Source: Vibrio syngnathi (GTDB taxonomy: Bacteria; Pseudomonadota; Gammaproteobacteria; Enterobacterales; Vibrionaceae). Taken from it: a stretch of DNA of 64,000 nt. Where the stretch lies: assembly GCF_002119525.1 (NCBI RefSeq), contig NZ_CP017917.1, positions 1,523,965 to 1,587,964 on the forward strand. The letters run 5' to 3'. Numbering within the stretch: position 1 is the stretch's first letter; every line of letters begins with the position of its first letter. The notes beneath the pieces were generated by a model, which saw only the letters and a program-made list of their open reading frames with translations, had not been told where the DNA came from and searched no databases. Made by a program: the position numbers and the translations under genes. This document shows, one piece after another, positions 12,783 through 31,228 of this stretch.

Positions 12783-12798
12783 AAATTTCCGACAGGCA

Positions 12799-12850: not shown

Positions 12851-13051
12851 CACAATCTGATATTAATTTGGGATAATTATTTAACTTATGAGCCAGTATG
12901 CACCTGTGCGCATTGATGTACTATTTTTATATGATTCATCGCGATAAATCAATCGATAAAAGTTAGAGTTTGGTCAATTTAAACCATACAGATTGAAATA
13001 ATTTAGCGATCTAGATCTCGAAAATCATCATAAAACCCATAAAAATCAGAT

Positions 13052-13918: not shown

Positions 13919-14042
13919 TCCCTTGCCTCATTTCTACTAACGTCATATAAACATACTTCATATCATGTGTGCTTGCTTGTTCAATCCATTGTTTTTTGAA
14001 ATAGCCTCTCTTTTAACTAACTGACTGACTCTTATAAAAAAT

Positions 14043-14076
14043 AAAGCCCTTCGTCTTGCTACAAACGAAAGGCTTT
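14043..14076 (-). terminator. Terminator of the secDF operon
   Basis: On the minus strand, AAAGCCTTTCGT pairs with ACGAAGGGCTTT with one mismatch, followed by ATTTTTTA. It lies about 75 bp after the secF stop. Confidence 0.8.
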
Positions 14077-14150
14077 GCTGAACTCACTCGTTAGTCAATG
14101 AGGACTAAGGCTGAGCGCTATCTAATTAGAAAACTTAAGCAATCAGGAAA

Positions 14151-15089
14151 CTAAGGATACTCACCCTCAACTTCGATTACTGGTTTCACCTGATAGTGAC
14201 AAGGCTGCAATCCAAGTAATTTAGGTAGGGTGATGCCTACTGAAATAGAGGACCACGTACCGCTGACAATACCAACAACGAGTGCAATAGCGAAACCTTG
14301 CAGTGCCGCACCACCAAGTAGCCAAAGCGCAGATACGGTGATCAGCGTCGTTCCTGACGTCACCATGGTGCGTGAGAAGGTCGCTTTAACTGATCCGTTA
14401 AGCAGGTTGTCAGTATCACCGTTTGGATTGCCACGAAGCATTTCACGGACACGGTCGGCAATGATGATCGAGTCATTCAATGAATAACCGAGAATCGCTA
14501 ACACGGCCGCCAATACGGTCAGATTGAACTCAAACTGAGTAAAGGCGAACAAACCTAAGATAAGCGTCACGTCGTAAATGATTGCAGCAATAGCACCAAG
14601 TGCCAAACGCCATTCAAATCGTACACTCAGGTACAGCATGATCATTAGGAAACACACCAATACCGCCAAGCCACCTTGGTCAACCATGTCTTGACCCACC
14701 TGAGGGCCAACCACGCTGCTGTTCAGCACTTTTACTTGGTCACTTACAGAAGACAAAGCATCCACTAAGTTTGGCTGTGGCGCGTCTGTCAGTTGGCTGT
14801 AACGAATCGTCCAGCGATCCTGCTCTGCCATACCAACCACTTGTACGTCTTGTTGGAAAGCCGTATCAAGTTTGGTTTTTAACGCATCTTTGGTTACTTG
14901 ATCAGAGAGTTGAACTTCAGCAACTACACCGCCAGTAAAGTCCAAGCCCCAGTTAAAACCTTTCACTGCCACCAGCATCACAGAGCTCATGAACAGCACA
15001 ATAGAAATCACAGACATCACCTTACGAAGGCGAGTCATATTGCTGTCTGAAATATAGCGGTCTGAAATAGTCATATTTGAAGTACTCAT
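14151..15089 (-). CDS. secF: Protein translocase subunit SecF (SecDF2)
   Basis: A 312-residue inner-membrane subunit of SecDF, which uses an ion gradient to help pull secretory proteins through SecYEG. There are six transmembrane segments: one N-terminal (about residues 22-44) and five after the periplasmic P4-like domain. Family motifs are KGFNWGLDFTGG near residue 44, YDVTLILGLFA, LNDSIIIADRVRE and FSRTMVTSGTTLITV. The gene starts 2 bp after secD ends, so the pair is coupled. With vemP upstream this is the SecDF2 type of marine Vibrio, known in V. alginolyticus to be induced when the sodium-driven SecDF1 is inadequate. Confidence 0.95.
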   Translation of the reverse strand: MSTSNMTISDRYISDSNMTRLRKVMSVISIVLFMSSVMLVAVKGFNWGLDFTGGVVAEVQLSDQVTKDALKTKLDTAFQQDVQVVGMAEQDRWTIRYSQLTDAPQPNLVDALSSVSDQVKVLNSSVVGPQVGQDMVDQGGLAVLVCFLMIMLYLSVRFEWRLALGAIAAIIYDVTLILGLFAFTQFEFNLTVLAAVLAILGYSLNDSIIIADRVREMLRGNPNGDTDNLLNGSVKATFSRTMVTSGTTLITVSALWLLGGAALQGFAIALVVGIVSGTWSSISVGITLPKLLGLQPCHYQVKPVIEVEGEYP

Positions 15090-15091
15090 GT

Positions 15092-16885: not shown

Positions 16886-16894
16886 AGTCAAGAT

Positions 16895-17005
16895 CTCTTC
16901 TTTTTACCAATCACCGTAAACACAAGCTCAAAAATTGCGCTGAAAAAAAGCAGTGATCGAGCGTTTTAACCAGCTAGGATGGCCAGTTATTTACTACGAT
17001 TGGTA
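16895..17005 (-). promoter_or_regulatory. RNA switch upstream of secD (vemP-controlled)
   Basis: In the vemP-secD transcript, UACCAAUC (17005 down to 16998) is perfectly complementary to GAUUGGUA (16912 down to 16905). The second arm ends 2-3 nt before the secD ribosome-binding site AAGAAGAG. Such a helix would hinder initiation on secD. In V. alginolyticus, a ribosome stalled on vemP disrupts a stem-loop here and frees the site. The 85-nt apical region can form additional weaker pairing. Confidence 0.65.
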
Positions 17006-17164
17006 TGTCTAATGTTTTGCGAACACGAACGTCAACTAGTCACAACCAGAACAAGCTAATTGAGTAATAGTGTGGCTAATAATTGTGTGTCGCTATATTT
17101 GGTTAATTGGCGAGATCAACGGACACAAGGCGACCATCGATACGACCAATTTAGGGTCAAATGA

Positions 17165-17677
17165 TTAGCTAAGAAGCTCTCGGAAATGCGAGTATTGGAT
17201 GTTGCCCTCTTTCCACCCCGAAAGCCGGGAGGACGGAGAACTCACAATACTGGTCCAGTGCTGCTTGGAATCCAACAATGGTGTGTTGAAAAGCAGAGAA
17301 GCCAGTAATGAAGGGGGAGAGAAGTCGATCAATAAGTGGTAAGCAGGCTCTAGGTCAGCCACGCTTTCTTGCTCATTACTGAGTATGCGTCTGAAGTTTG
17401 CAGCTTGGAGGCTCGACTCGGTGTCATGATAGTTGGAACTGTCACCATAAGGCACGGCACCAAACTGAACTTTGTCGCACTCTAAGTAACTAGACGCGTT
17501 ATCCGTAGTGGCTTGTTTACACTGTTTTTTCGAGGAAGATTGTTCACTCTGCGAAGATTGCTCTTGAGCCGAGTATATTTGAAACGGCTTAGAAGGAAAC
17601 GAATAGCCGTTAGAATTCACTAAGCCAAAGCTCAGTAAAAACAACATTAAGACTAATCGGGTACCTAGTTTAAGCAA
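17165..17677 (-). CDS. vemP: VemP secretion-monitoring arrest peptide
   Basis: A 170-residue exported regulatory peptide. The N-terminus (LGTRLVLMLFLLSFGLVNSNG) is a Sec signal peptide, the middle is Ser/Gln-rich and featureless, and the C-terminus contains RLSGWKEGNIQY. This matches the SGWKE...Y core that I recall from the VemP arrest sequence of V. alginolyticus. VemP stalls its own ribosome unless pulled by the Sec machinery, and stalling switches on secDF2. Location 280 bp before secD on the same strand supports the call. The start is a TTG at 17677 with a poor ribosome-binding site; an in-frame ATG lies ten codons on, but would remove the basic residues of the signal peptide. Confidence 0.85.
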   Translation of the reverse strand: MLKLGTRLVLMLFLLSFGLVNSNGYSFPSKPFQIYSAQEQSSQSEQSSSKKQCKQATTDNASSYLECDKVQFGAVPYGDSSNYHDTESSLQAANFRRILSNEQESVADLEPAYHLLIDFSPPSLLASLLFNTPLLDSKQHWTSIVSSPSSRLSGWKEGNIQYSHFRELLS

Positions 17678-17833
17678 TTAACAACAATCCTGAATGGTAA
17701 ACACTGCGACAATATATAACAGCCATGAAAGTTACAATTGATTTAGAAACACAACCGAACACATTTGACACTACGCTGACAATTTCTGACCTCCTAGCGC
17801 TGTATTCACGCATCCACAATCGCCAGAAAACAA

Positions 17834-17860
17834 AAAGCCAAGCAGTGGCTGCTTGGCTTT
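17834..17860 (-). terminator. Terminator after the first M16 gene
   Basis: A 12-bp perfect stem (17834-17845 with 17849-17860) and a 3-nt loop, with a T-run on the minus strand. It lies about 110 bp past the M16 stop codon, beyond the heptamer array. Confidence 0.88.
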
Positions 17861-17910
17861 AGTTTGGTCGCGTTAACAACGATTTAAACTGTCTTTTTCA
17901 CGTTCTACTC

Positions 17911-17984
17911 TAGGCTTTAGGCTTTAGGCTTTAGGCTTTAGGCTTTAGGCTTTAGGCTTTAGGCTTTAGGCTTTAGGCTTTAGG
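17911..17984. repeat. Heptamer tandem repeat (TAGGCTT), 10.6 copies
   Basis: A perfect 7-bp tandem array of 74 bp. On the minus strand the unit is CCTAAAG. The array begins inside the last codons of the M16 gene (CCT AAA GCC TAA), so the stop codon itself lies in the repeat and the rest is 3' untranslated region. Copy-number change by slippage would leave the protein unchanged. Confidence 0.97.
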
Positions 17985-20741
17985 ACGCATGATGTTCTTA
18001 ACCTTACGGCTGTTCTCACCAAAAACACGCTGTATTCGATCATTCATATCTTCAGTGGATATCGATCTCGCCACGCGCTCAACTTGAGACAAAGCTTCGA
18101 TATCGTAACCATGAAGTAGATAACGAGACACATACCACGCTTGGTCAATAGAGCTCATCTCGAGAGGCGTGAAGTCAGCTTCAAACTGTTTCACAACCGC
18201 TCGCATTTCCTCTTCAGAAACGCCTTGCAGAAGGTCAGTAATCACCTTATCGATCGCCACTTCGACTTTATCAACGTTCTCTGGCGCTATCATCGCACCG
18301 ATAACCCACTCATCACTCAACTCACTATCTGCAGACGCTGAATACGTATAAGGCGAGTAATCTAAGCTTAACTCTTCACGAATATAAGTATCTAAACGAG
18401 CCGCCAGCAAGCGTTGCAGTAAGTCTTCCATGAAAACATCTTTTGCCGACACTTTAACTTCAATACTAGGCTCAGAGATAACTCTTAGGATGTACTCTGC
18501 GCTATTCACGTTGTTGATGGCTAGATCAATGCGAGACTCTGATGATGGTTTGTAAGCCACCTTAAAGTCAGGCACTACCGCTTTTTCCAATGGAATCGAA
18601 GCCAAATATTGCTGAACCAAAGGCTTGAGTACGCTTGGGTCAATATCACCAACGATCACCAATTGGTTATGCCTCATTTGACCAAACAGTTGCTGATGAA
18701 GATGACTGATATCTTCCACAGAAACGGCTTCAACACGCTCTTTATCAACAAAGAGGTGACGACCGTCAAGATGATAGAGATTCTGGTTTATCGCGCGTTC
18801 AAACTGTCCAACAGAACTGCTCAAGAAAGACTCTCGACCTTGTACAAACTCTTGCTTCACCGCCTCTAACTGCTCGGGATTAATTTTAGGCGCAGTTATG
18901 AAAGTATAAAGTGCAGCAAACGTATCTTTAAGCCCATCTTTTTGGATATTAAATTCAATACCGTGACGAGTGCTGCCTATAAAAGAGTCGGCTTGAATAT
19001 TTTCACGGTCAAAGTACGCGTGAAGTTCAGAGCCGGTCAATTCCCCCACACCACTTCGCGCGAAAGTAGGTAGTGCTATCTCAACTGCTGGGTATAAGCT
19101 TGGATCCAAAGCGGCCTTTCCACCCAAGCTCATGTACATCACGCCAACATCATCATTCGCCTGTGAATCGCGCAGGTACCACATATCAATACCATTACTT
19201 AGCGTCCATTTTTGAATGTATGGATCGATAGATATCTGTTCAACCAGCACAATATCGCCTTGCGAACTCGGCACAGCAAAAGCACTCCCCGCCGATGCAA
19301 CCAACGGCGCTGTACCCGTTTCGCTATAAGTGGCTTTCAAGCTATCTAAAGAGTTATTGATAGCTGCTCTGTTTTCAGTCTCATTCATGCCAATGATCAT
19401 GAAATAATCACCAGAAAGTATGCTTTTTATGTTGTCATTAATAGCTTCAAGACTGACGTTGGAAATGAAAGCTTCCATACTTGCCTGAAAATCTTTCTGT
19501 GATTGAACGATTCGACCCGTCACTAAGGCACTTGCCTTATTGTTCGCGTGATCGACACCGTCCTCTTTATCCCAATCATGCTCAATATTATCGAGCAAGT
19601 TTTGGTAGTAGTGCTGTTCACCAACAATCTCCGCTTCCGAGACACCGTAATCACGCAATGATGCCAACGTCGAGAGCATCTTTTGCTGAGTCACTTCACG
19701 GCTTCCAACAGGGAATCCAATACTGGTTGATGAGTAAAGCAGAGCACCCATTTCAAGACTGTCTGACGCTATCCATTGAGTCGGCAAAGCCGCATCATTA
19801 AATACCGCCTCAAGTCGTTGTTGAATCAATAACTGAGAGGTTTCATCCAACCAACGTTGATGCTGTTGATCGTGAGTTTCAATGATGTTTGAGCCTCGGT
19901 TAAACGTCAGTGAGATACTTGGGGCTTCTCTCTTCGTATACTCAACATAGTCACCTTCGTTGAAAGTGGTGATTTTCTGTTTGACTGGTTTCGGTGTTTC
20001 ACCACGCTGCCAACTAGAAAACTTCGCTTCGATTAATGGGATCACAGTTTCGATATCCACATCACCAGAAACAACGAGCTCTGCGATTTGAGGTTGATAC
20101 CAAGTCTGGTAAAAGTCGGTTAGGGTTTGAGAAGTAGCATTTACAACCGATTCTTTGGTTCCCAATGCATCTTGAGATTCATACGGGCTACCTTCAATAA
20201 AGTGGTCATAAAACACTTCAGGGAATGATTTATCGTCAAGGCGAGCCATACGAAACTCCCCAAGAACCACACCTTTTTCTTTTTCAACTTCTGAACTGGC
20301 GAGATCCAACCCATCACCAATGTCACGCATCCACTTCAAGGCAGACTGTAATTGGACATTATCGGGTAAATCTAGCTGGTATACCGTCTCTTCATAAGAA
20401 GTGTAGGCATTAATATCAGCCCCAAAACTAGCACCTGCATCTTCAAATAGGCGAATCACGTCGTTTTGAGAGAAGTTCTTACTGCCATTGAATGCCATGT
20501 GCTCGACGAAGTGTGCATAACCTTCTTGTTGGCGAGTTTCTTGAATCGAGCCTGCATGTACGACTAAACGAACAGACACCGGCGCTTCATGATCAGGGTA
20601 AACATGGTAGGTAAAGCCATTCTCTAGCTGGCCTGAAGTCCAAGCCGGATCTGGTTGGATGAAGGTTTCCGTCGTTTTCGATGTAGAACTACAGCCAACT
20701 AAGGTAAGGCATAATGCCGTCGCTAAATAATTTGTTTTCAT
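17973..20741 (-). CDS. M16-family zinc metallopeptidase lipoprotein, copy A
   Basis: A 922-residue M16 (pitrilysin/insulinase-like) peptidase. The N-terminus is a lipoprotein signal with lipobox LVGC (Cys17), so it is membrane-anchored in the periplasm or outer membrane. The zinc motif HFVEH is at 77-81, with the downstream acidic helix EKEKGVVLGEFR completing the site. A second, inactive M16 half fills about residues 480-922, as usual for the long forms. GAGGTT precedes the ATG at 20741. The gene is clearly paralogous to the next gene upstream (21089-23851), with the same domain plan and many identical blocks such as QGYAHFVEHMAFNGSKNFS, and is separated from it by a terminator and 347 bp. 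Confidence 0.93.
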   Translation of the reverse strand: MKTNYLATALCLTLVGCSSTSKTTETFIQPDPAWTSGQLENGFTYHVYPDHEAPVSVRLVVHAGSIQETRQQEGYAHFVEHMAFNGSKNFSQNDVIRLFEDAGASFGADINAYTSYEETVYQLDLPDNVQLQSALKWMRDIGDGLDLASSEVEKEKGVVLGEFRMARLDDKSFPEVFYDHFIEGSPYESQDALGTKESVVNATSQTLTDFYQTWYQPQIAELVVSGDVDIETVIPLIEAKFSSWQRGETPKPVKQKITTFNEGDYVEYTKREAPSISLTFNRGSNIIETHDQQHQRWLDETSQLLIQQRLEAVFNDAALPTQWIASDSLEMGALLYSSTSIGFPVGSREVTQQKMLSTLASLRDYGVSEAEIVGEQHYYQNLLDNIEHDWDKEDGVDHANNKASALVTGRIVQSQKDFQASMEAFISNVSLEAINDNIKSILSGDYFMIIGMNETENRAAINNSLDSLKATYSETGTAPLVASAGSAFAVPSSQGDIVLVEQISIDPYIQKWTLSNGIDMWYLRDSQANDDVGVMYMSLGGKAALDPSLYPAVEIALPTFARSGVGELTGSELHAYFDRENIQADSFIGSTRHGIEFNIQKDGLKDTFAALYTFITAPKINPEQLEAVKQEFVQGRESFLSSSVGQFERAINQNLYHLDGRHLFVDKERVEAVSVEDISHLHQQLFGQMRHNQLVIVGDIDPSVLKPLVQQYLASIPLEKAVVPDFKVAYKPSSESRIDLAINNVNSAEYILRVISEPSIEVKVSAKDVFMEDLLQRLLAARLDTYIREELSLDYSPYTYSASADSELSDEWVIGAMIAPENVDKVEVAIDKVITDLLQGVSEEEMRAVVKQFEADFTPLEMSSIDQAWYVSRYLLHGYDIEALSQVERVARSISTEDMNDRIQRVFGENSRKVKNIMRPKA

Positions 20742-21088
20742 AACAACCTCTTAATGTCATCTGTCGACAATATACATGCAGAGTTAATGATTATTATTTA
20801 ATACTGAACCGAATGAGTATCTTTGTGATCTAGATCTTTATTTTATAAATTATAACTAGATTATATAAGATTCGAATTACTAGCATTTAAAAGTCACTAC
20901 CTAGTTTAAAAGTCAGTCACTAGTTTAAAAGTAGCAAGCTTGAAAGTGATAAATTAAAAAGTGACAAGCTTGAAAGACTAACCCTAACCCAAATAAAAAA
21001 GCCAAATGACTGTGCATTTGGCTTAGATTCGACATCATATATTCAGGGTGCAAGCGACTTTTCTAAAAAGTCACTTTACTCAATCAGC
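20742..21088. other. Spacer between the two M16 genes
   Basis: No gene seen. It holds short direct repeats: TAGTTTAAAAGT at 20902 and 20921, and CAAGCTTGAAAG at 20935 and 20965. It also holds the terminator of the upstream M16 gene (20999-21024). The A+T-rich part at 20770-20890 must contain the promoter of copy A. Confidence 0.7.
20994..21024 (-). terminator. Terminator after the second M16 gene
   Basis: AAGCCAAATG (20999-21008) pairs with CATTTGGCTT (21015-21024) across a 6-nt loop. The A-run on its left becomes the T-tail on the minus strand. Confidence 0.9.
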
Positions 21089-23851
21089 TTAACTTTGTGG
21101 CCTTAACAAATTCTTCAACTGATAGCTGTTATCTCCAAAAATTTCTTTAGCATACTCAGTCATATCTTCACTAGAAATTGAATCTGTCGTTCCCTGTAAG
21201 TCAAACAGCGCCTCAACACCATAGTCATGAATTATGTAACGTGAAATAAACCAAGCTTGTTGCGTGGGCTTATATTGAAGTGGCGTGAGGTCGGCCATTA
21301 ACTGCTTAGCTGCCGTTCTAGTCTCGTCTTCAGAGATCCCTTTAACGGCTTCAGCAATAACTTTATCAATCGCCTGTTCAACCTGATCTAAGTTTTCAGG
21401 GGCTGTTAAGGAGCCCACAAACCAGTCATAACTTGGCTCACTATCTTGAGCGACCGAATACACATAAGGTGCATAATCCAAACCTAACTCTTCACGAACG
21501 TAAGCCGTTAGGCGACTCGACAATACGCGCTGCAGCATATCATCCATAAACACATCTTTTGCTGTTTTATCCCGAGCTTGCTGGGAAATAATACGCAATA
21601 AGTACTGGCTGCTGTCTTCATTGTTGATCGATACATCAATTCGCTCTTCTGAATCCGTTTTATAAGCTACCTCATAATCAGGAGATTCAACCGCTTCTAG
21701 TGGCAATGAAGCAACATATTGGCGTAGGAGAGGCTTAATTTCAGAGGGCTTAATATCAGCAACGATGACAAGCGTATTGTCTCTTAACTTCTGAAAGAGT
21801 TGATGCTGTAGGTCAAGTATATCTTGAGGTTTAACCGCTTCAATATCTTCACTTTCCAGCATGATATGACGACTACTTGGCTGGTAGCTGTTGCGATTCA
21901 CCATCTGGGTAAACTGCCCCATTGGCGTTTCTAGATAGGCAGTACGACCTTGTGCAAATTCAGATTTCACAGCCTCAAGCTGATCGCTGTCAATTTTAGG
22001 TTCGGTCACAATGGTATACAGTGCAGCCAAGCCTTCTGCGAGCGTCTTCTTCTTAGTGTTTATCTCCAACCCGTGATGAGTAAAGTTAATGAAAGGGTAA
22101 ATTTGAATGTCTTTGCGTTTCAAATGGGCATTTAATTCCGAGCCACTGAATTTACCAACTCCACTGCGATTCGAAGCTGGAATAGCCACCTCTAGCGCAG
22201 GATATAAAGAAGAATCAAGGGCAGCTTTGCCACCTTCACTCGCATAATAAACACCAACATTGTTGCCCGCCTCAGGGTTTCGTAAATACCAAACTTCGAT
22301 GCCGTTACTCAATGTCCATTGCTGTAAGTTAGGCTCCTCACTCACCTGAACTTGTTTCACAATTTCGCCTTGAGACGCTGGCACGCTAAAGGCAGAACTG
22401 GCGGTTACGAGCAGTGGTTTATTACCCGTCTTTTTATAGGCTTTTCTAACATCTTTTAGCTCGTTATCCATTGCTAACATGTCTTCCTTAGAAGATAAAC
22501 CTAACCCCAAAATATAAGGGCTAGAAAGCAAATCATCTAAGTTATCATTCACGGCCTCGAGATCCGTATTCGCAAGAAACGCTTTCAAGCTCGACTTATA
22601 ATCGAGCTGTGATTGAACGGGTTGGTTAATCACCAATGCCGTCGACTTACCGTCAGCATGAGTTACGGCATCCATTTGATCCCAGTTAACTTGAATATCA
22701 TCAAGGTTCGCTTGGTATTGCTGTAGCACACTCGCCAACTCATATTCGCTTACGCCATAATCACGCAAAGAGGCGAGAGTAGAAACAAACTGCTGCTGAC
22801 TTTGATCTCGGCTATCAACAGGAAAACCGACGGTAGTAATCGAATACCTTTGGTACTCTAATAAGTAGGGAGTTGAAGCAACCCATTGCACGGGCAACGC
22901 AGCGTCAACAAAATCAGAGTTCAATCTTTGTTGGATAAGTTGTTGAGCAATATCATCTAACCAAAGCTGATGTTGTTGCTCATGGCTCTGTGTCACTCTT
23001 TCCCCACGATCAATCACTATCCCGATGCTCGGTGGCTCGACCCCAGATCCATACGCCACAAAATCTTGAGTATTGTAATCCGTTGATGTGTTCTTCACGG
23101 GAACCGGTGTTGCGCCTCTTTGCCAGCCAGAGAAACGTTCTTCAATCAAAGGGATCACTTCTGCCAGTGTGATATCGCCAGAGACAATCACTTCGGTTAA
23201 CTGAGGTTGATACCAGGTTTGGTAAAAATTCTTTAATTCTTGAACATTCGCATTGGAAACGGATTCTTTATTACCAATGGGATCGTTACTTTGGTAAGTC
23301 GTCCCTTCAACCAGATGATCGTAGAACTTAAACGAGAGAGGTTTATCTTCAACTCGCGTGTATCGAAACTCTCCAAGTATCACACCTTTCTCTTTTTCGA
23401 TTTCAGCTTCGGACAGCAATAAACCATCGCCAATGTCTCTAAACCAAGCCAGCGCTTTGTCTAGGTTCTTATTGTCGGGTAGATCTAACTTATAGAGGGT
23501 TTCTTGGTAAGAGGTGTAAGCATTTAAGTCAGCACCAAAGCTGGCACCAGATTGCTCAAATAGCTCGACCACATCATTTCCAGAAAAGTTCTTGCTGCCA
23601 TTAAACGCCATATGCTCAACAAAATGGGCGTACCCTTTCTGTTGTTCGCTCTCTTGCAAAGATCCGGCATGCACAAGTAAGCGTACCGAAACCGGTTGTT
23701 CTTGGTCAGGGTAAACATGGTAGGTTAATCCGTTATCTAACTCTCCTTTGACCCAGTACGGATCGGATTTCAATAACGTTTGTTGCTGAGGAGTAGAGCT
23801 GCAACCTAGCAATGTGGAGCTCAATACGACGACTAAATAGTATGCTTTCAT
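21089..23851 (-). CDS. M16-family zinc metallopeptidase lipoprotein, copy B
   Basis: A 920-residue paralogue of copy A. Signal MKAYYLVVVLSSTLLGC has the lipobox LLGC (Cys17), the zinc motif HFVEH is at 76-80 and the helix EKEKGVILGEFR follows. The C-terminal M16 half lacks HxxEH. I chose the ATG at 23851 because it gives a proper lipoprotein signal and has GAGA upstream; an in-frame start at 23896 would add 15 residues before the signal. The role of these lipoprotein peptidases is unknown; degradation of exported peptides is a reasonable inference. It has its own terminator and probably its own promoter, so duplication was followed by independent expression. Confidence 0.93.
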   Translation of the reverse strand: MKAYYLVVVLSSTLLGCSSTPQQQTLLKSDPYWVKGELDNGLTYHVYPDQEQPVSVRLLVHAGSLQESEQQKGYAHFVEHMAFNGSKNFSGNDVVELFEQSGASFGADLNAYTSYQETLYKLDLPDNKNLDKALAWFRDIGDGLLLSEAEIEKEKGVILGEFRYTRVEDKPLSFKFYDHLVEGTTYQSNDPIGNKESVSNANVQELKNFYQTWYQPQLTEVIVSGDITLAEVIPLIEERFSGWQRGATPVPVKNTSTDYNTQDFVAYGSGVEPPSIGIVIDRGERVTQSHEQQHQLWLDDIAQQLIQQRLNSDFVDAALPVQWVASTPYLLEYQRYSITTVGFPVDSRDQSQQQFVSTLASLRDYGVSEYELASVLQQYQANLDDIQVNWDQMDAVTHADGKSTALVINQPVQSQLDYKSSLKAFLANTDLEAVNDNLDDLLSSPYILGLGLSSKEDMLAMDNELKDVRKAYKKTGNKPLLVTASSAFSVPASQGEIVKQVQVSEEPNLQQWTLSNGIEVWYLRNPEAGNNVGVYYASEGGKAALDSSLYPALEVAIPASNRSGVGKFSGSELNAHLKRKDIQIYPFINFTHHGLEINTKKKTLAEGLAALYTIVTEPKIDSDQLEAVKSEFAQGRTAYLETPMGQFTQMVNRNSYQPSSRHIMLESEDIEAVKPQDILDLQHQLFQKLRDNTLVIVADIKPSEIKPLLRQYVASLPLEAVESPDYEVAYKTDSEERIDVSINNEDSSQYLLRIISQQARDKTAKDVFMDDMLQRVLSSRLTAYVREELGLDYAPYVYSVAQDSEPSYDWFVGSLTAPENLDQVEQAIDKVIAEAVKGISEDETRTAAKQLMADLTPLQYKPTQQAWFISRYIIHDYGVEALFDLQGTTDSISSEDMTEYAKEIFGDNSYQLKNLLRPQS

Positions 23852-24100
23852 AACGATCTCTTTGAAGGGCTTCCCTCCAATATATCTGATCGTCAAAGTG
23901 TAATAATTTCATATAAATTCAGTTATTTAAATTTTGAGAGACAATCTAAACATGCGTGAAACTGTCAACTTTATAAATTACACAAGCTGAGCGTCATAGG
24001 TTGTAGATCGAGGTATCAGGTCCTCTTAGATTCACTTCATCTCCAAGCTTATGATTAGATTCTTTTAAACTAATTTATTGGATTCCTTTAAACAGGTTTC

Positions 24101-24967
24101 TCACATCCCTTTAAAAAGAGCTTGCGAGGCGCGACTGATCGGTAGCTTCTCACCTGACACATAAGCCGACATCTGACCGGAGAGCCCTTTCTTCACCTTA
24201 TCAATGGCAGACACTTTAACCACCACCGAGCGGTGGATCTGCCAAAACTCATCTGGGTTAAGCTGCGCAATCAACTCTTTTAGCGACACGCGAAGAATAA
24301 ATTCCTCTAGCAAACTGCCTTGGCCTTTTTTGAATATCGAGACGTACTTGTCTTCCGCTTTGAAGTAAGCGACATCATCGACGGCGATAAGGTGGATGTC
24401 TTCCCCAACACTGGCTTTGAGCCAAGTAAGATGTTTCTTCTGCTGTTGATAAAGGGGCTGAGATTGAGAAGGAGACTGCATTTGCTGTGACGTCGATTGT
24501 GATAACTGTTGAAGCTGAGCCATTAACTCCGTGATATCCGGTTGTTCTGGCGTAATACCTGATTGCGCTTGGTTGCTCGACAGACGAGCTTGCACCTTCT
24601 GACAGGTGGCGAGTAAGCGCTCTTCATTGATCGGTTTAAGTAGGTAATCCATCGCATTGTGCTCAAACGCTTTAACTGCGTATTCATCATAAGCGGTAAT
24701 GAAAACCACCAAGGGCGGCGAATCTAGCTTGTTCAATTGTTTAGCCAGCGAGATACCATCCAGCTCCGGCATACGAATATCAAGAAAGACCACATCAGGC
24801 TCAAACTGCTGAATACTCTGCATCGCCTCCAATCCATTTGTTGCCTTGCTGACAATCTCTAGCTCAGGCCAAACCTCAGCAAGGCTCTTGTCGAGATGGT
24901 GTCTTAACAGTGCTTCATCGTCTGCGATAATTGCCGTTACGTTCGGCTTTACTGCTGGGTTAATCAT
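24101..24967 (-). CDS. LytTR-family response regulator
   Basis: A 288-residue regulator. The receiver domain (about 8-125) has the acidic pair at D16-D17, D63 in VVFLDIRMPELDG and the Lys in LLKPI. A Gln/Ser-rich linker follows (about 140-180, including SQSTSQQMQSPSQSQ), unusually long for this family. The C-terminal LytTR DNA-binding domain (about 185-288) has VAYFKAEDKYVSIF and WQIHRSVVVKVSAI. It is last gene of the seven-gene operon from 30902, 51 bp after its kinase. LytTR proteins bind direct repeats; the target is most simply its own operon. Confidence 0.93.
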   Translation of the reverse strand: MINPAVKPNVTAIIADDEALLRHHLDKSLAEVWPELEIVSKATNGLEAMQSIQQFEPDVVFLDIRMPELDGISLAKQLNKLDSPPLVVFITAYDEYAVKAFEHNAMDYLLKPINEERLLATCQKVQARLSSNQAQSGITPEQPDITELMAQLQQLSQSTSQQMQSPSQSQPLYQQQKKHLTWLKASVGEDIHLIAVDDVAYFKAEDKYVSIFKKGQGSLLEEFILRVSLKELIAQLNPDEFWQIHRSVVVKVSAIDKVKKGLSGQMSAYVSGEKLPISRASQALFKGM

Positions 24968-25018
24968 TATTATTCCTTTAAATTCACACTGTAAATCGTC
25001 TGTTTGTAGTCACTGTTC

Positions 25019-26077
25019 TTAGAGTTTCGGCTCATCGTTCTCGGAGCCAGTTTCACTGATGAGCGGTAATAAGATAGTTGATACCACCCCGCCCTCAGCT
25101 TGTTCAGTAATCGTGAGGCTAGCCTTATCACCATAAAGGGTTTCGATTCTCTGACGAATATTGCTTAACCCAACACCATGCCCCGTATTCGCAGAAGGCG
25201 TTTTCAGCCCCGCGCCATTATCTGAAACTTCAATTTTTAGCTGTTGTGCCTGTTGAGCAATGTGGATATTCACTTGGCCACCCGCGGCTTTAGGCTCAAT
25301 ACCGTGAGTTAATGCGTTCTCGACCAAGGGTTGAATCAAGAACGGTGGAATCACCTGCAAATCACTAATCTCGTGTGTTTCAATCGAGAACGTTAAGCGC
25401 TCTCCCAAGCGTATCTTTTGGATATTAAGATAAGCGTCTAACAAGTCGACCTCTTGTGCGATGGTCGATTGCTCGTTGCGGCTGTTTTTCAAAGTCACAC
25501 GCAATAAGTCAGTCAGTTTTTCGAGCATCAACTTGGCTTTCGCGCTGTCACTCTCAATCAATACATTGATGGTCGCAAGCGTGTTGAACAGGAAGTGCGG
25601 CTCAATTTGGCTCTGCAGTTGCTTAAGCTGACTCAGCACCACCACCTTTTCTTGATCAGCTTGGCGACGCTTGGCCACTTCTAATTCATTGTCGGCACGT
25701 AACTGCTGCTCTCGTGTGTAGAAATAGTAATAGCAAACCGAACAGAAGATCACACCGAGCAAGACTACAGATTTAAGGTCCGAGATATTGGCCCCAAAAT
25801 ATCCGTTCAACCAATAGTGCGCGTTCAAGGTACCAAAGGTCATCGCGATCACCATTGAGATACCCACATCAAACACCTTTGATTTCCTCTTAAACACCTC
25901 AACCAAGATAAAAGAGGATCCCACCGCGCTGTAACCAAAACCAAAGCTTATCGCGAGATTGACCACAAGACCGCCGCCCCAAATTGTCTGTGTGGTGACG
26001 GCAATGATAAAACAAAACAAGGTCGTCAGCGTGAAGCTCTTAATCCATGAAAACTGACTGTTTGAAGAAGTGTTCAT
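25019..26077 (-). CDS. LytS/YehU-type sensor histidine kinase
   Basis: A 352-residue membrane kinase. There are four hydrophobic segments in residues about 13-118, then a short coiled coil (120-155) and the His_kinase domain with QSQIEPHFLFNTLATI (H161), the hallmark of the LytS/YehU group. The C-terminal ATPase domain has PLVENALTHGIEP and SDNGAGL. There is no periplasmic sensor domain, so it probably senses within the membrane. Its ATG at 26077 shares the last base of the barrel gene (stop/start overlap), indicating coupling. It partners the LytTR regulator just downstream. Confidence 0.93.
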   Translation of the reverse strand: MNTSSNSQFSWIKSFTLTTLFCFIIAVTTQTIWGGGLVVNLAISFGFGYSAVGSSFILVEVFKRKSKVFDVGISMVIAMTFGTLNAHYWLNGYFGANISDLKSVVLLGVIFCSVCYYYFYTREQQLRADNELEVAKRRQADQEKVVVLSQLKQLQSQIEPHFLFNTLATINVLIESDSAKAKLMLEKLTDLLRVTLKNSRNEQSTIAQEVDLLDAYLNIQKIRLGERLTFSIETHEISDLQVIPPFLIQPLVENALTHGIEPKAAGGQVNIHIAQQAQQLKIEVSDNGAGLKTPSANTGHGVGLSNIRQRIETLYGDKASLTITEQAEGGVVSTILLPLISETGSENDEPKL

Positions 26078-27369
26078 TAAAATCGTCCTTTGATATTTAA
26101 AAGAATCATATGACTATCGGGTAAGTTGGCGTAAGCAGAATCACTTTTACCGCCTAGAAAGCGTGCAGCAAGTTCCAAATCCAACGATGAATTGCCATTA
26201 TCTAAAGCCTGATAGTTGAGCCACTGCGTTGCAATGAAACCACCGTCTTGAGGAGACAACATGACGTCGAATGTCGGCGTGATATCTTCAAGCCAGCCAT
26301 GTGTCGAATCCAAAGACCAGTGAAACATGATGTTGTGTTGAACCAAATTGGCGTGTTGATAACCTTGCGCGTAAGAACCTGCCAATGATGCTGTCATCGG
26401 ATTAACCGACAAAGACTCAGCACTCCCTATTGCGCTTTGCCACTCAGAGTTACTCCACGCTCGGCTATCAAACCAGTATTCCAGAACGACATTATGGCCA
26501 GTGTCATTCGCCCATGTTAAGCCGGCTAACGCTTGATAGGCCTCGCCCTGTTCTTCGAGATAAACAGGTTTAAGCATTGAATTAGGCTGGCTGTAGCCTA
26601 AGCTTTGTCTTTGATAGACCGCTGAGCCATGAAACTCCCAAGCGAGATTGAGCACCGATACTAAACTCGCTCCAAGCAAGCCATGGCGCACATCGTCATA
26701 ATAAGCGACCCATTGAACTTCGTGATCGCCCACTAGGTTGTAACGACGTAAGCCAATCCCTTGTTGTTGGTTCTGCTTTTCGAATTTATTCACGTTTTGG
26801 GAAGTCCACGAAGAATCGCTATAAAGCAGCGTCCACTCGCCCGTCATATCGAACAGTGACGCCGACACAATACCCGCGCCCTCTTCTGCGACAATACCGA
26901 CTGGATTCTGGCGATAAGGCTTGATTATGTCTAAAGGTCGGTAGCCATAACCCACGCCCCAATCAAGGCGAACCTTACCGAGCGTGACATCGAGGTAGTG
27001 GTCACCGATTAACGAATTCGACAGCTCAACACCACCTTGCCAAAACAACTCACGCACAATGAATTCCGATTCAAAGCTCGCCTCATTCCCCTGTGGGTCG
27101 TTGCTCAAAATATCGTTGGCTTTCACGGCAAACAGACCAAGCCAATTGTTATAACCAATCTCAAGATCCAGCAAGCCATTCAACGACTGACGCTGATCTG
27201 ATGCCAAAGGAGTGAATGGCGACTCTCTCGATTCAACCGCTTCTGCACTCAGTTGCCAATCCCACGCTAAGCTCAGGTCGTTCGCTTGAATCGTGTTACT
27301 CACACAAGACAAGGCAAGCAAAGTAGCGATTGAAGACTTGATGTGGAATAGGCGATTGGGCACTCTCAT
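26077..27369 (-). CDS. Predicted outer-membrane beta-barrel protein
   Basis: A 430-residue protein with an N-terminal signal peptide (SSIATLLALSCVSNTIQA). The rest alternates polar and hydrophobic residues with many Trp, Tyr and Gly, and the last residue is Phe (LLNIKGRF), the usual signal for barrel insertion by BAM. DWGVGYGYRPLDII near residue 140 is the most conserved-looking block. I recognise no named family; DUF-level proteins of this kind accompany LolA-like and MacB-like genes. It is fifth in the operon: 8 bp after the LolA-like gene and overlapping the kinase by 1 bp. A role as the outer-membrane component of this export system is inference. Confidence 0.75.
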   Translation of the reverse strand: MRVPNRLFHIKSSIATLLALSCVSNTIQANDLSLAWDWQLSAEAVESRESPFTPLASDQRQSLNGLLDLEIGYNNWLGLFAVKANDILSNDPQGNEASFESEFIVRELFWQGGVELSNSLIGDHYLDVTLGKVRLDWGVGYGYRPLDIIKPYRQNPVGIVAEEGAGIVSASLFDMTGEWTLLYSDSSWTSQNVNKFEKQNQQQGIGLRRYNLVGDHEVQWVAYYDDVRHGLLGASLVSVLNLAWEFHGSAVYQRQSLGYSQPNSMLKPVYLEEQGEAYQALAGLTWANDTGHNVVLEYWFDSRAWSNSEWQSAIGSAESLSVNPMTASLAGSYAQGYQHANLVQHNIMFHWSLDSTHGWLEDITPTFDVMLSPQDGGFIATQWLNYQALDNGNSSLDLELAARFLGGKSDSAYANLPDSHMILLNIKGRF

Positions 27370-27377
27370 AAGCTCAC

Positions 27378-28178
27378 CTACAGCCCAGACACGCTGTTAC
27401 GCGATAGGTAGGCAGGGTTGTAGTATTTGTCTTCCAAGCTTTGTTCAATCACTTCGCGGTACTCAATCACGGTTTTCTTACTCGGCTGAATCTTATCAAG
27501 CAAGGTCATCGACACCACTGTTGGTAATCCATCTCGCACGCCTTCAGTAAACCACGCTTGTTTCGCCAGTTTTCCAGAACGCAGATACAGATCCGCTTTA
27601 ACTGGGAATGCACGGTCTGCTGTTAACCACAGATCAATCGACTGGTAACTCGCCCCCTTGGTTTTCGCCGCGAGCTTTAAGTGATGGGTATCGAGTATTT
27701 CGCCAGTCGGCATCTCAACTTGTTGCTCGGCAACCCACTCCCCTTGGTAGTCTTCGCTCCACGTCAGCGTCGAGATGTCCCCAACCGAGGCTTCACCCAA
27801 TAGTTTTTGCATCGGTGTAATACGAATTGGTCGACGAGATTTCGGCATCAACAACCAATAGTTATCTTCTATCATCAGCATCTTTTGACCTGCCTCAACG
27901 GCTGATTTAAAGACCACTAATGACTCTCGATTTGGTCTTGTGTAGACGTTGTATTTACGGGTTTTGTCCAGTTGCTCGTCTTGATATAGCGCCACCAGAG
28001 AAACCACTTTAGACGCCTGTTCGCTGTTCAAACGATAGCTGTCAGCCTTGGCGATCATCTCTGTGACTTGTTGTGAATCGACTGCCCAGCTTGGCGCCGA
28101 TGCTAGAAGCGAAGCCAAAACAGAGCCCAACGCGAAAGCCAAACCCAAGGTATTGAATGAACGAGTTAATCTAGACAT
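27378..28178 (-). CDS. LolA-like outer membrane lipoprotein-sorting protein
   Basis: A 266-residue periplasmic protein. The signal peptide is about residues 1-32 (LGLAFALGSVLASLLASAPSWA), followed by a LolA/LolB-like half-barrel of the type annotated as outer membrane lipoprotein-sorting protein: NVYTRPNRESLVVFKS, NYWLLMPKSRRPIRITPMQKLLGEASVGDI and FPVKADLYLRSGKLAKQAWF. It is a separate family from housekeeping LolA. Its gene overlaps the permease gene by 8 bp. Such proteins are usually encoded with MacB/LolCDE-like ABC proteins, and probably carry a hydrophobic ligand or lipoprotein between the membranes. The ligand here is unknown. Confidence 0.87.
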   Translation of the reverse strand: MSRLTRSFNTLGLAFALGSVLASLLASAPSWAVDSQQVTEMIAKADSYRLNSEQASKVVSLVALYQDEQLDKTRKYNVYTRPNRESLVVFKSAVEAGQKMLMIEDNYWLLMPKSRRPIRITPMQKLLGEASVGDISTLTWSEDYQGEWVAEQQVEMPTGEILDTHHLKLAAKTKGASYQSIDLWLTADRAFPVKADLYLRSGKLAKQAWFTEGVRDGLPTVVSMTLLDKIQPSKKTVIEYREVIEQSLEDKYYNPAYLSRNSVSGL

Positions 28179-29469
28179 AAACCAGTGCCTCCGTGATTGG
28201 CTTATTCACGCCTTTGCGAGCAGAGAAATAAGCAGCCAGCAAACATATCGTCAGCACACCCAAAGTGGCGTAACCAACCAATTCCAATGAGAAGTAAATG
28301 TTGAGTGGGTAGCCCTCGGTTCGACCCGGAGGTGGTGGCATTTGTATATCAACCACCAGCAATAACACCGACACTAAGCCACTCACTAACGCACCGATCG
28401 CACTGCCAATCACCGCCAGCAATCCCGCCTCTTTTAAAAAGCCTGCGACAATTTCAGAGGGGTAACTACCCAGTGCCGACAAGGTGCCGATTTCACGAGT
28501 ACGTTCTGTCACCGACATGGTCATGGTGTTAAACAAAGACACGAACACCACCAATGCCATAACAGCACCCATGATGCCGAAGATCCGGTCGTAAAGATCT
28601 TTAACCTTGGTGTAGAAAAACGCGCGATCTTGCCACGGAGTGATCTCGATCTCTGTGCCTTGATCGTTTTGGCTAGCGCTATTTCGATCTAAAGCAGTTT
28701 GAATACGCTGTTGAACAGTCGAGGTCTTGTTGGTTTCAAATAGGAACACCGACAAGGTACTGACTTTGTCTGAGGCCAAAAGTTCTTGAGCAGTGGTGAT
28801 ATGAACATAGAGCTGACGCTTATCCAGCTCAGGAACACCCGTCGAGTAAATACCCTGCACCTTAAAATCAAAGGCATTCAAAGCGCCATCACTGGTGGTG
28901 GCTAGCAGCGTTACCCAATCACCAACCGCAACTTTGAGGTTACGAGCCAGATCAGTTCCCAGCATCACTTGTGGCTCTTGGCTGTCGTATCTTGGGGATT
29001 TTACATCCGAGAGCGTTTGCCCGCTGCGTACATCTAAGAAAGGACCTTTCATGTCAAACTCGCGCTCATTAACGCCCGTTCCCATAAAAATGGTCGACTT
29101 ACTGCCATTAGAAACCAAGCCACTAAAATAGACTCGCGGTTGCACACCACGCACGTCATTGTCACCAATAATGCTCTTGGTTAGCGTTTGCACGTTATCC
29201 AGACCATTGCTCAGCGGCATGTCTTCATCTTGTTCAAAATATCCCGGCGAGCTCAACGTGAGATGGCCAGTATCACGCGCGGTCGACTCACGTAGAGACT
29301 CATAAGTATAAAGCCCGTAGCCTCCTGCCGACGTCAACGCAAATACCGCAATCGCGATAATCAACACCGAAAGCAGGCTGCGTCGACCGTTTCTTAATAA
29401 ATTAAGCCACGCTAAACGCACCGAAGTTGGAAATAAAAACGTGCTCATTCTTTGTGTTAACTTGCCCAT
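28171..29469 (-). CDS. MacB/FtsX-type ABC transporter permease
   Basis: A 432-residue permease with the MacB/LolC architecture. One N-terminal helix (about 33-57, LLSVLIIAIAVFALTSAGGYG) is followed by a large periplasmic domain (about 60-300) and three C-terminal helices in the FtsX domain (MGAVMALVVFVSLFNTMTMSVTERTREIGTLSALG, then LLAVIGSAIGALVSGLVSV and LVGYATLGVLTICLLAAYF). Type VII ABC proteins of this kind do mechanical work on periplasmic substrates rather than moving them through the membrane. Its start at 29469 overlaps the ATPase gene by 13 bp and has GAGGCGAG upstream. It works with the neighbouring ATPase. Confidence 0.92.
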   Translation of the reverse strand: MGKLTQRMSTFLFPTSVRLAWLNLLRNGRRSLLSVLIIAIAVFALTSAGGYGLYTYESLRESTARDTGHLTLSSPGYFEQDEDMPLSNGLDNVQTLTKSIIGDNDVRGVQPRVYFSGLVSNGSKSTIFMGTGVNEREFDMKGPFLDVRSGQTLSDVKSPRYDSQEPQVMLGTDLARNLKVAVGDWVTLLATTSDGALNAFDFKVQGIYSTGVPELDKRQLYVHITTAQELLASDKVSTLSVFLFETNKTSTVQQRIQTALDRNSASQNDQGTEIEITPWQDRAFFYTKVKDLYDRIFGIMGAVMALVVFVSLFNTMTMSVTERTREIGTLSALGSYPSEIVAGFLKEAGLLAVIGSAIGALVSGLVSVLLLVVDIQMPPPPGRTEGYPLNIYFSLELVGYATLGVLTICLLAAYFSARKGVNKPITEALVYV

Positions 29470-30155
29470 GAGCTCGCCTCCGTGGTTGTATCTTGTGGCG
29501 CCAGTTGACCGTCGATAAGTTCAATGACTCGATCGCAGCGCTGTGCCATTCTTGGGTCGTGCGTTGCGACAATAAAAGTCGTGCCCATTTCGTGGCCGAG
29601 CTCTTTCATAATGTCGATCACAAGGTTGGCAGTGTGACTGTCTAGGCTCGCGGTCGGCTCATCGGCAATCACCAAGCTTGGGTTGTGAATCAACGCTCTG
29701 GCTATCGCGACACGTTGCTGTTGGCCTCCAGAAAGATTATCTGGGCGATGATGAACATAATCCCCCAATCCAACACGCTCCAGCATATGTTGTGCTCTGG
29801 TCTGCTGTTCTTGTTTCGAACATTGGTTCAACATCAATGGATAAGCGACGTTCTCAAGCGCGGTCATCACAGGAACCAGATTGAAGCGTTGAAACACAAA
29901 ACCCAACGACTGACGACGAAAGCGCGCAGCGGTGATCTGCTCTGTTGGATACGGTTGGTCATCAATATTGATTTGCCCTCGATAATCCATATCCAACAAA
30001 CCAAGAACATTCAAAAGTGTACTTTTTCCAGACCCAGACGGCCCACACAAGGCCACCATTTCACCGCGTTGGATGCGTCCATCGACCCCGTTTAATGCAT
30101 CAACCCGTTGACCGCCAGTCACATACGCTTTGCCGATACCTTTAAATTCAATCAT
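29457..30155 (-). CDS. ABC transporter ATP-binding protein (LolD/MacB type)
   Basis: A 232-residue ATPase. Walker A is GPSGSGKSTLLN, the Q-loop is FVFQRFNLVPVMTALEN, the signature is NLSGGQQQRVAIARAL, Walker B is LVIADEPTASLDS and the H-loop is IVATHDPRMA. The sequence belongs to the LolD/MacB/FtsE group that pairs with FtsX-type permeases. It overlaps the permease gene by 13 bp and follows the first operon gene by 66 bp. It energises the adjacent permease from the cytoplasm. Confidence 0.95.
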   Translation of the reverse strand: MIEFKGIGKAYVTGGQRVDALNGVDGRIQRGEMVALCGPSGSGKSTLLNVLGLLDMDYRGQINIDDQPYPTEQITAARFRRQSLGFVFQRFNLVPVMTALENVAYPLMLNQCSKQEQQTRAQHMLERVGLGDYVHHRPDNLSGGQQQRVAIARALIHNPSLVIADEPTASLDSHTANLVIDIMKELGHEMGTTFIVATHDPRMAQRCDRVIELIDGQLAPQDTTTEASSWAS

Positions 30156-30221
30156 TTCGTTGTCCTTTGATTACCCATCATTCTTAAGCGTTCGCAGTTG
30201 TTAATGAGCTTTAGTAAAACG

Positions 30222-30902
30222 TTATTTGGCTTTCGCTATTAGGGCCTTCGCAGTCATAGTTTCGATATTGCCAGCATCGGCAGTTTCCATTTGTTCTAGC
30301 CACGCTTTTGCTTGCTTTAGATCTTCAGCACGAATCGACGCCGTGATTGCGTAACGGTAAATCCACGAGGTTGCAGCGAAGTGTTGTTGCTGGAAATCAT
30401 CTTCCGCAAGTAACGAGAGGAACAGGTCATAACCACGATCGAAATGGTTAAACATGTCTGGCAGAGAAGTGTAAGTCACCGCAGCCATGGCGCGAGTTAG
30501 GTAAGAATCTGGCAGCCCTTGAACACGAGGTTGCTCATGAATCGGTTGGTCTTCGTCTTTAAGCAGCACCAGTGATTTATCAATGGTTGATAAGCCTTTC
30601 TCCACATACTTCATCTTGTTCCAAGGTAAGAACGCATCACGCCCCATCAGGGTTTCTGTGCTTCCGAGGTAAACCAAAGTCAGTGGCGTAGCGCCGTCTT
30701 GTTGCAGCGTATCGTTAAGGCGTTCGTAAGCCACCTCAACCAGATCTTCATTGCCTTGCGCGGCTTGATTATAGATATCAAGAACGTCTGAACTTGGGTT
30801 AGCCTGCGCCAAAGTGGGTGCGAATGAAACAAGTGCAACCAGTAATGAACGCTTAAGCACAGAAGTGGTAGAGCCTGAATTAAATGAGTGTGAAGTAGTC
30901 AT
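30222..30902 (-). CDS. Exported helical repeat-like hypothetical protein
   Basis: A 226-residue protein with a signal peptide (about residues 18-34, LLVALVSFAPTLAQA). The mature part is alpha-helical and resembles TPR/SEL1-like solenoids without a clear consensus: NEDLVEVAYERLNDTL, LTLVYLGSTETLMGRDAF, and a final AKAWLEQMETADAGNIETMTAKALIAKA that looks like a degenerate TPR. I recognise no named family. It is the first gene of the seven-gene operon. It has a ribosome-binding site (GAAAGG) lying in one arm of a perfect hairpin at 30914-30938. A periplasmic adaptor for the ABC system is a plausible role. Confidence 0.75.
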   Translation of the reverse strand: MTTSHSFNSGSTTSVLKRSLLVALVSFAPTLAQANPSSDVLDIYNQAAQGNEDLVEVAYERLNDTLQQDGATPLTLVYLGSTETLMGRDAFLPWNKMKYVEKGLSTIDKSLVLLKDEDQPIHEQPRVQGLPDSYLTRAMAAVTYTSLPDMFNHFDRGYDLFLSLLAEDDFQQQHFAATSWIYRYAITASIRAEDLKQAKAWLEQMETADAGNIETMTAKALIAKAK

Positions 30903-31228
30903 GATTTCTAATCCCTTTCAAATGTTGACGTTGAAAGGTTAACTAGAATTTGTCATGCCGTTTTATCAATGCGACGAATGGTAGTAACGAGGAGTGAATG
31001 GTTTAGATAGGGTGTGAGTGGTGGGAGCTGCAAACAAAAAGCACGAGTAGGAAAGGATAAAATGAGTGGGCAAAAACGTATCTGACATTTCCCACTTCAG
31101 GCCTTGATCTGAGCTGACTCATTTCTGCCCCATTCTGAGTCAGTGCTGGAATTTATTCACATCCTATCAATGCTAGTTTACCCTACTAAAAGTTATCCGA
31201 TTGACAGGTCTTAGGCACAGAGGAAAAA
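30903..31228. other. Divergent promoter region of the ABC operon and GNAT gene
   Basis: No gene seen. It contains the hairpin at 30914-30938. AT-rich stretches near 31150-31210 precede the GNAT gene; I cannot place -35/-10 elements confidently. Confidence 0.6.
30914..30938 (-). promoter_or_regulatory. Hairpin covering the ribosome-binding site of the operon's first gene
   Basis: CCTTTCAA and TTGAAAGG form a perfect 8-bp inverted repeat with a 9-nt loop. In the minus-strand transcript the 3' arm (UUGAAAGG) contains the Shine-Dalgarno sequence, 12 nt before the ATG at 30902. It could act as an RNA hairpin limiting translation, or as a DNA operator for a dimeric regulator. Confidence 0.6.

Follow-up and report, generated by a model that had tools for sequence, protein, structure and literature searches.

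How Gram-negative cells bring greasy molecules other than lipopolysaccharide, phospholipids and lipoproteins to their surface is poorly known. A candidate route was proposed in 2026 for Borrelia, where the seven-gene export cluster BBJ23-BBJ29 was described from sequence and structure predictions combined with published expression data (PMC13078400). Here, we describe a seven-gene operon of Vibrio syngnathi, located at positions 24101-30902 of a 64,000-nucleotide stretch of contig NZ_CP017917.1 (positions 1,523,965 to 1,587,964; hereafter the window). The operon encodes an ATP-binding cassette (ABC) transporter, a LolA-like carrier, a predicted outer-membrane barrel, an exported tetratricopeptide repeat (TPR)-like protein and a kinase/regulator pair. 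It is best read as a trans-envelope exporter, autoregulated and dedicated to an acylated amphiphile (a lipid or lipid-like metabolite), a reading to which we assign a probability of about 0.56. Compact, widespread and equipped with its own switch, a set of four or five genes of this kind represents a directly testable candidate for such a route.

The Vibrio operon and the Borrelia cluster are alike in having a separate ATPase, a homodimeric MacB-like permease, a LolA-like carrier, an exported TPR protein and an outer-membrane barrel (PMC13078400). They appear to differ in the barrel, which is described as an Omp85-type domain in Borrelia, whereas an 18-strand AlgE/Occ-like barrel is predicted in Vibrio. 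According to the available part of the same source, the Borrelia set includes two TPR proteins and no kinase or regulator, and its expression depends on Rrp2; the kinase pair and a tandem promoter box set the Vibrio operon apart. At the sequence level, the LolA-like protein of the window matched a plasmid protein of Borreliella valaisiana (E 2e-4) whose gene adjoins an FtsX-like permease gene, and the window permease matched 25 Borreliella/Borrelia plasmid records, not all of which necessarily correspond to BBJ27. An earlier, sequence-only reading had proposed the operon as an undescribed system. No paper naming the exact seven-gene set was found in the open-licence literature, most subscription papers being outside that scope, but the proposal has to be narrowed in view of the close Borrelia set. 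The available parts of PMC11767970 and PMC12419801 held nothing on the operon, the latter treating other LolA-like contexts. Separately, in B. valaisiana lp28-8 (L203, NZ_CP116877.1 13762-26334), the FtsX-permease and LolA-like genes were observed two genes upstream of an annotated thiazole/oxazole-modified microcin (TOMM)-type peptide cluster.

The seven co-directional open reading frames (ORFs) all lie on the minus strand, exactly within the limits that had been claimed, and encode, in 5' to 3' order, proteins of 226, 232, 432, 266, 430, 352 and 288 aa. The first is an exported periplasmic TPR-like helical protein (HEL, 30222-30902) with a signal peptide that ends in AQA by eye, followed by an ABC ATPase of the LolD/MacB type (ATP, 29457-30155; Pfam ABC_tran) and a single FtsX/MacB_PCD permease (PERM, 28171-29469; Pfam FtsX and MacB_PCD). 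Next are a secreted LolA-like carrier (LOLA, 27378-28178; PF17131) and the predicted 18-strand outer-membrane beta-barrel (BAR, 26077-27369). The operon closes with a membrane histidine kinase (HK, 25019-26077; PF06580 and HATPase_c) and a response regulator with a LytTR DNA-binding domain (RR, 24101-24967). The intergenic distances in gene order are +66, -13, -8, +8, -1 and +51 bp, so the genes overlap or abut at the middle four junctions and not, as previously stated, throughout: the first and last junctions are open.

The distribution of these genes supports one functional unit that reaches from the cytoplasm to the outer membrane. In a survey of 150 genomes drawn evenly across the Vibrionaceae, strong permease orthologs (best E <= 1e-100) were identified in only 58, so the operon is patchy even within the family. 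The 28 strong loci inspected were the window and 27 of the 58 other strong places. All seven genes were present in identical order in 24 of them; L087 and L088 lacked the TPR gene, and L086 and L089, both in genome G008, lacked the kinase pair. Plasmid records of Vibrio sp. HDW18 and Plesiomonas carried six of the seven genes. In a class-wide search, the permease profile matched 76 of 369 genomes at E <= 1e-30, some weakly and without the N-terminal part, and all seven families were present in 5 of the 20 loci fetched. A contig scan with one peptide pattern yielded at least 80 loci; once the duplicates L123 and L124 were removed, all seven families were present in 15 of the matches listed. Combining these searches with four further plasmid loci gave 134 classified loci.

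All seven families recur together in 45 of the 134 loci, including beta- and distant gammaproteobacteria, which is more than a chance neighbourhood would give. The ATPase, permease, LolA-like protein and barrel occur within 6 kb in 103 loci, and this core was found across several phyla. Loss of gene order outside close strains had been named as an observation that would speak against a single system; gene content was instead kept far beyond them, with the order sometimes shuffled. The arrangement barrel-kinase-regulator-TPR-ATPase-permease-carrier was observed in Gynuella, Rheinheimera and Oceanospirillum, and the kinase/regulator pair was placed divergently in 8 betaproteobacterial loci. Because such rearranged loci keep all families together, the linkage survives shuffling, and a chance neighbourhood was rejected, since the gene content persists despite altered flanks and altered order. 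Furthermore, the distance matrices of the six partner families correlated with that of the permease, with Spearman coefficients of 0.74-0.85 across the 45 loci, a level reached in 0 of 500 permutations, and of 0.48-0.85 in the 20 loci from outside Vibrionaceae. Shared vertical descent alone would also yield such correlations.

The Pfam matches agreed with the earlier assignment of a MacB-like ABC transporter and a periplasmic LolA-like protein. The ATPase displays, by eye, the Walker A motif (GPSGSGKST), the LSGGQ signature and Walker B. In NCBIfam, the ATPase and permease scored best or near best with the LolD and LolCE models, under the curated cut-offs in both cases (229.2 bits against TIGR02211, cut-off 307.75; 93.5 bits against TIGR02212, cut-off 362.45). 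The permease matched chains of YtrF, LolE, MacB, LolF and LolC in the PDB, and its hydropathy profile gave five windows, two of them overlapping, and hence four hydrophobic regions; about 245 residues separate the first from the second, the layout of type VII ABC transporters. The carrier reached 124.3 bits against LolA_like PF17131 (Pfam cut-off 30); at E <= 1 Pfam returned only this family and one chance-level match, with no LolA proper, and NCBIfam returned no family at E <= 0.1. Its match to PDB entry 3buu (NE2245) had an E of 2.9e-19. With MacAB-TolC, the permease shares the MacB periplasmic core domain and the FtsX domain, but the ATPase and permease are separate ORFs that overlap by 13 bp, and no MacA or TolC domain was found by Pfam among the seven proteins, the rest of the genome not having been searched for an adaptor.

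The operon resembles LolABCDE (and LolF/LolD) in its transporter class, its LolA-fold carrier and its inner-to-outer-membrane relay logic. These features, together with the Lol models and chains that the transporter matches, could point to a second, dedicated Lol-like pathway that brings one or a few lipoproteins to the surface, in which the barrel would stand in for LolB and flip its lipoproteins to the outside. For the Borrelia cluster, lipoproteins are mentioned as a possible ligand (PMC13078400). The operon differs from LolABCDE in its PF17131 carrier, which is not LolA proper, in having a barrel at the place of LolB, and in its TPR protein and its own kinase and regulator. We regard a lipoprotein cargo as rather unlikely: the curated Lol cut-offs are missed, no further gene is regularly present (any extra co-operonic gene occurs in 18 of 57 kinase-bearing loci), a lipoprotein encoded elsewhere being conceivable, and relatives carried in biosynthetic clusters accompany small-molecule acyl enzymes.

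Pfam searches at E <= 1 returned no family for the barrel and none for the helical protein, and AlphaFold2 models agreed with what the sequence-only reading had assigned to both. The barrel model (pLDDT 87, pTM 0.81) has 18 strands as counted from the strand list, a helical-hairpin insertion at residues 307-338 and a conserved low-confidence loop at about 134-164. The helical protein was modelled with ten helices in a TPR-like arrangement (pLDDT 86, pTM 0.80). Among the matches listed, the closest folds to the barrel model were AlgE and OccK; these folds and the 18 strands speak against an Omp85-type barrel, although Omp85 could lie beyond the matches listed. The predicted barrel shares its strand number with the AlgE alginate exporters, but at 11% identity and with no Pfam match it falls outside their sequence family. 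Several barrel homologs (P0002, P0028, P0034 and others) carry the name "Beta-lactamase" at their source, which is likely a propagated misannotation because Pfam has no model that matches the window's barrel. Vibrio natriegens is among the species for which a BAR homolog is listed.

The clue to the cargo comes from relatives without the kinase pair. On the Escherichia coli G8 and G6/7 plasmids (L121 / L005, NZ_CP060058.1, about 11878-23074), a TPR-ATPase-permease-carrier-barrel set has a FeeM-type N-acyl amino acid synthase on one side and a crotonase on the other, and short-chain dehydrogenase/reductase (SDR), acyl carrier protein (ACP), ketosynthase (KS) and PfkB genes upstream; this cluster is present in 2 of 5426 complete E. 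coli genomes. Downstream of the core in Desulfocapsa (L164) are sulfotransferase, AMP-binding, SDR, GCV_T, FeeM and KS genes. Polyketide synthase (PKS)-type genes were also identified, as L091 runs on into an AMP-binding/ACP/KS/acyltransferase (AT) protein and a PS-DH/ACPS protein is encoded upstream of L112. Acyltransferase and SDR/ketoreductase (KR) genes lie next to L175, and a phosphopantetheinyl transferase gene next to L182. A biosynthetic marker was found within 6 kb in 9 of 77 kinase-less and 0 of 57 kinase-bearing loci (Fisher p = 0.010), or in 6 of 74 against 0 of 57 without the three loci that supplied marker queries (p = 0.035); the test used few markers, kinship among loci was uncorrected, and L164 was not counted because it exceeds the 6-kb range.

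The barrels of the window's class were homologous to a mostly kinase-less nine-member profile over 370 columns (probability 98.8, E 1.1e-16), two of the nine members (L165 and L174) being from kinase-bearing loci; as single sequences, the window barrel and the E. coli plasmid barrel aligned weakly (E 0.0042, probability 8). Since kinase-less cores sometimes sit in acyl/polyketide clusters and the barrels are homologous, the core would handle acylated amphiphiles, and by analogy the window's version may do the same. The set would tie lipid-metabolite gene clusters to a concrete export route. The earlier proposal of a Lol-type relay or exporter for one substrate stands as the best reading, with the substrate suggested solely by these kinase-less relatives. 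A comparable arrangement is known from aryl polyene/xanthomonadin-type clusters, where a LolA-family protein and an exporter-like protein are devoted to an acyl/polyene product and xanthomonadins are outer-membrane pigments; the available part of that source describes no ABC-LolA-barrel set with a LytTR pair (PMC3949708).

Extra co-operonic genes occur in 44 of the 77 kinase-less loci, and those of kinase-bearing loci vary in length; one of about 888 aa is common to the related, kinase-bearing loci L147 and L148. The kinase-less loci provided 109 extra genes of at least 110 aa, of which 89 were taken into a Pfam census (20 were left out as too long, contig-cut, transposase or through list-shortening). 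Among 103 families, adh_short was the commonest (4), followed by Acyl_transf_1, KR, ACPS, DUF2141, M20 and M28 with 3 each, so that acyl enzymes lead yet form a minority. A second, kinase-less copy within a Vibrionaceae genome (L089:3596-5681) is followed by thiolase and 3-hydroxyacyl-CoA dehydrogenase genes, a hint of fatty-acid traffic. These neighbours would also suit an importer or retrieval route, in which an external lipid or alkane-like nutrient passes inward through the barrel and the LolA-like protein; in Thalassolituus, an MMPL protein with a LolA-like domain and an adjacent predicted porin rise on long-chain alkane (PMC6304351). Import is nevertheless very unlikely, as the core is carried by acyl-synthesis clusters. 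In addition, ABC transporters with a permease of the MacB or LolCDE kind are exporters or extractors.

The export reading includes regulation from within the operon. The regulator, one of two LytTR matches in the genome, scored 87.9 bits for Response_reg and 67.8 bits for LytTR. A putative LytTR operator, the direct repeat ACCATTC-N13-ACCATTC with a 20-bp period, was identified on the minus strand at 30976-31002, 74-100 bp upstream of the first start codon. A third, imperfect half-site (ACCACTC, minus strand, 31016-31022) lies another 20 bp upstream, giving 11 of 12 matches for the pair at -120. Described LytTR sites consist of two repeats of 9-11 nt with 11-13-nt spacers, and the YpdB site is GGCATTTCAT as a direct repeat, according to the available part of PMC4847170. 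The regions upstream of the first gene were scanned for ACC[AG]TT pairs with at least 11 of 12 matches. Of 35 kinase-bearing loci, 23 showed the 20-bp period, and other spacings occurred in 0-2 loci each, except 40 bp (11 of 35), which is what a triple array yields, and 43 bp (7); no pair at 20 bp was found on the reverse strand of these loci. Within Vibrionaceae/Plesiomonas, 23 of 29 loci that carry the kinase/regulator have the box, whereas 0 of 18 loci without the pair do, so the operon is likely self-regulated by its LytTR regulator. This conserved upstream box also makes the operon itself the most likely target of the regulator, where action on unrelated genes only would have told against the system. 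The 23 loci are related and hence not independent events, though their spacer sequences differ, and the control is weak because only 4 of its 18 loci are Vibrionaceae.

The kinase/regulator pair resembles BtsSR and YpdAB in combining a histidine kinase, a LytTR regulator and, as a putative element here, a tandem direct-repeat operator (PMC5552118, PMC4847170, PMC10653868). LytS-type kinases are defined by the 5TMR_LYT membrane input domain, and the BtsSR/YpdAB operators precede pyruvate-linked carriers, as far as the available text describes (PMC5552118). The Vibrio kinase has no 5TMR_LYT domain in the Pfam search, and its putative operator precedes a transport operon. The label "LytS/LytTR pair" is therefore too loose in its first half: a PF06580 kinase and a LytTR regulator are present, making this a LytTR two-component system in the wide sense. 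Hydropathy gave four N-terminal windows and no sizeable extracytoplasmic domain for the window's kinase; across 56 kinases, three windows were counted in 27 and four in 18.

A kinase without an extracellular sensor domain beside an FtsX-family ABC transporter (by Pfam and hydropathy) is also the arrangement of Bce-type modules. The operon could accordingly serve in detoxification or resistance, the kinase sensing an external membrane-active compound (an antimicrobial peptide, a bile-like detergent or a foreign lipid) that the exporter removes. The likely autoregulation and the patchy presence in Vibrionaceae would be compatible with this function. However, the BceB permease has ten transmembrane segments, against the four hydrophobic regions of the Vibrio permease, a LolA-like carrier with its own barrel is unusual for efflux, and MacA and TolC domains are missing from the seven; we consider detoxification unlikely. 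In Vibrio parahaemolyticus, the counterpart appears to be VPA0015-VPA0021, judging from STRING-based remarks in the available part of PMC10469919, and the regulator VPA0021 was among the differentially expressed two-component system genes in infected THP-1 cells (PMC10469919), an observation that would fit a resistance role.

For the preferred reading, a dedicated exporter of an acylated amphiphile, the unit character, the component types and the likely autoregulation are well supported, and the steps of transport are inferred from families and folds. The homodimeric MacB/LolE-type permease with two ATPases would extract the molecule from the inner membrane, and the LolA-like protein would take it into its hydrophobic cavity and cross the periplasm, with the TPR protein possibly acting as adaptor or chaperone. 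The 18-strand barrel would then receive the cargo and release it to or through the outer membrane, at the place of LolB in the Lol pathway. The kinase, with few membrane segments and no large sensor domain, may sense, within the inner membrane, either the cargo or the state of the transporter, and comparative footprinting suggests that the regulator would bind the tandem 20-bp-spaced ACC[AG]TT boxes and raise transcription of the operon, including its own gene. The cargo could thus be sought by asking what induces the operon.

Several observations weigh against this reading. AlgE and OccK, the closest barrel folds, pass polysaccharide or small carboxylates and not lipids. Among the matches listed for 80 peptide-pattern loci, 13 had no detected LolA-like gene and 17 no barrel gene, for which thresholds, contig ends and true absence are all possible causes. 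Biosynthetic markers are absent near all 57 kinase-bearing loci, so the window's cargo could differ from that of its cluster-borne cousins, and just 9 of 77 kinase-less loci have one, three of which supplied queries. The kinase-less control for the box is mostly non-Vibrionaceae (14 of 18), and beyond Vibrionaceae/Plesiomonas just 3 of 28 loci with the kinase have the 20-bp box. In its own genome, the strict pattern ACCRTT-N14-ACCRTT occurs three times (the operon promoter, G000:C1:1239018-1239043 and G000:C1:2906347-2906372) against eight for the reversed control, so that a regulon definition from the genome-wide box was dropped; the case for the operator rests on position and conservation, and not on this count. 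Finally, the direction of export is inferred from the ABC type.

More tentatively, the ATPase-permease-LolA-like-barrel core may be a general, largely undescribed Gram-negative machine for secretion of lipids or lipid metabolites, found across several phyla, in which the LolA-fold carrier delivers to a barrel of its own and not to LolB. Within it, a large beta/gammaproteobacterial branch would have acquired two additions: the TPR adaptor, and a kinase that senses the system's own cargo in the inner membrane and switches on the operon by way of a LytTR operator (tandem 20-bp-spaced boxes in Vibrionaceae). We hold this generalization to be possible, with the odds somewhat against it. A quick tree was built from 126 permease rows. 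Of the 57 that bear the kinase, 52 fell into one group of 73 (support 99), and the other five into a group of two Gallionellaceae and one gammaproteobacterial metagenome-assembled genome and a Nitrospirota pair. With all 69 kinase-less rows, the kinase label required 11 changes, at least 8 of them forced by starred branches, against 41.5 in shuffles; a count of 3 changes took in just 7 cluster-borne rows as kinase-less. Judging from these sequences, the kinase pair is clustered on the tree, yet gained or lost repeatedly. Repeated gain as such was dropped, as 11 changes do not tell gains from losses and contig ends add false absences, and long branches and contig ends leave the deep history unsure.

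An M16-family peptidase gene (21089-23896), co-directional and 204 bp downstream of the regulator gene, was rejected as an operon member; outside the window it was found next to the operon in just four close relatives (L069-L072; L123 is a duplicate of L071). A defence system was also rejected, PADLOC having given ATPase-type matches, partial LolE-TM matches and one weak regulator match. The promoter scan gave 9 hits where 9.2 were expected, and the terminator-like scan (14 against 7.0 expected, sd 3.0) listed only hits within the seven ORFs; neither was used. Elsewhere in the same genome (L202:3944-8562; G000:C1, about 1800943-1805561), an MMPL (RND-type) gene is followed by one for a PF17131 protein (224 bits) and one for a 410-aa protein that likely belongs to the outer membrane. 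Operons of this MMPL/RND type have the same carrier family and an adjacent outer-membrane protein, but their engine is MMPL and not ABC; the outer-membrane protein scored 54 bits against BAR with an iterated hidden Markov model, and hhalign gave no alignment. Additionally, a variant in which two permease genes of one family stand in tandem was observed in L106, L109 and L110 (also in L117, L178 and others), with the LolA-like gene on the opposite strand in three loci.

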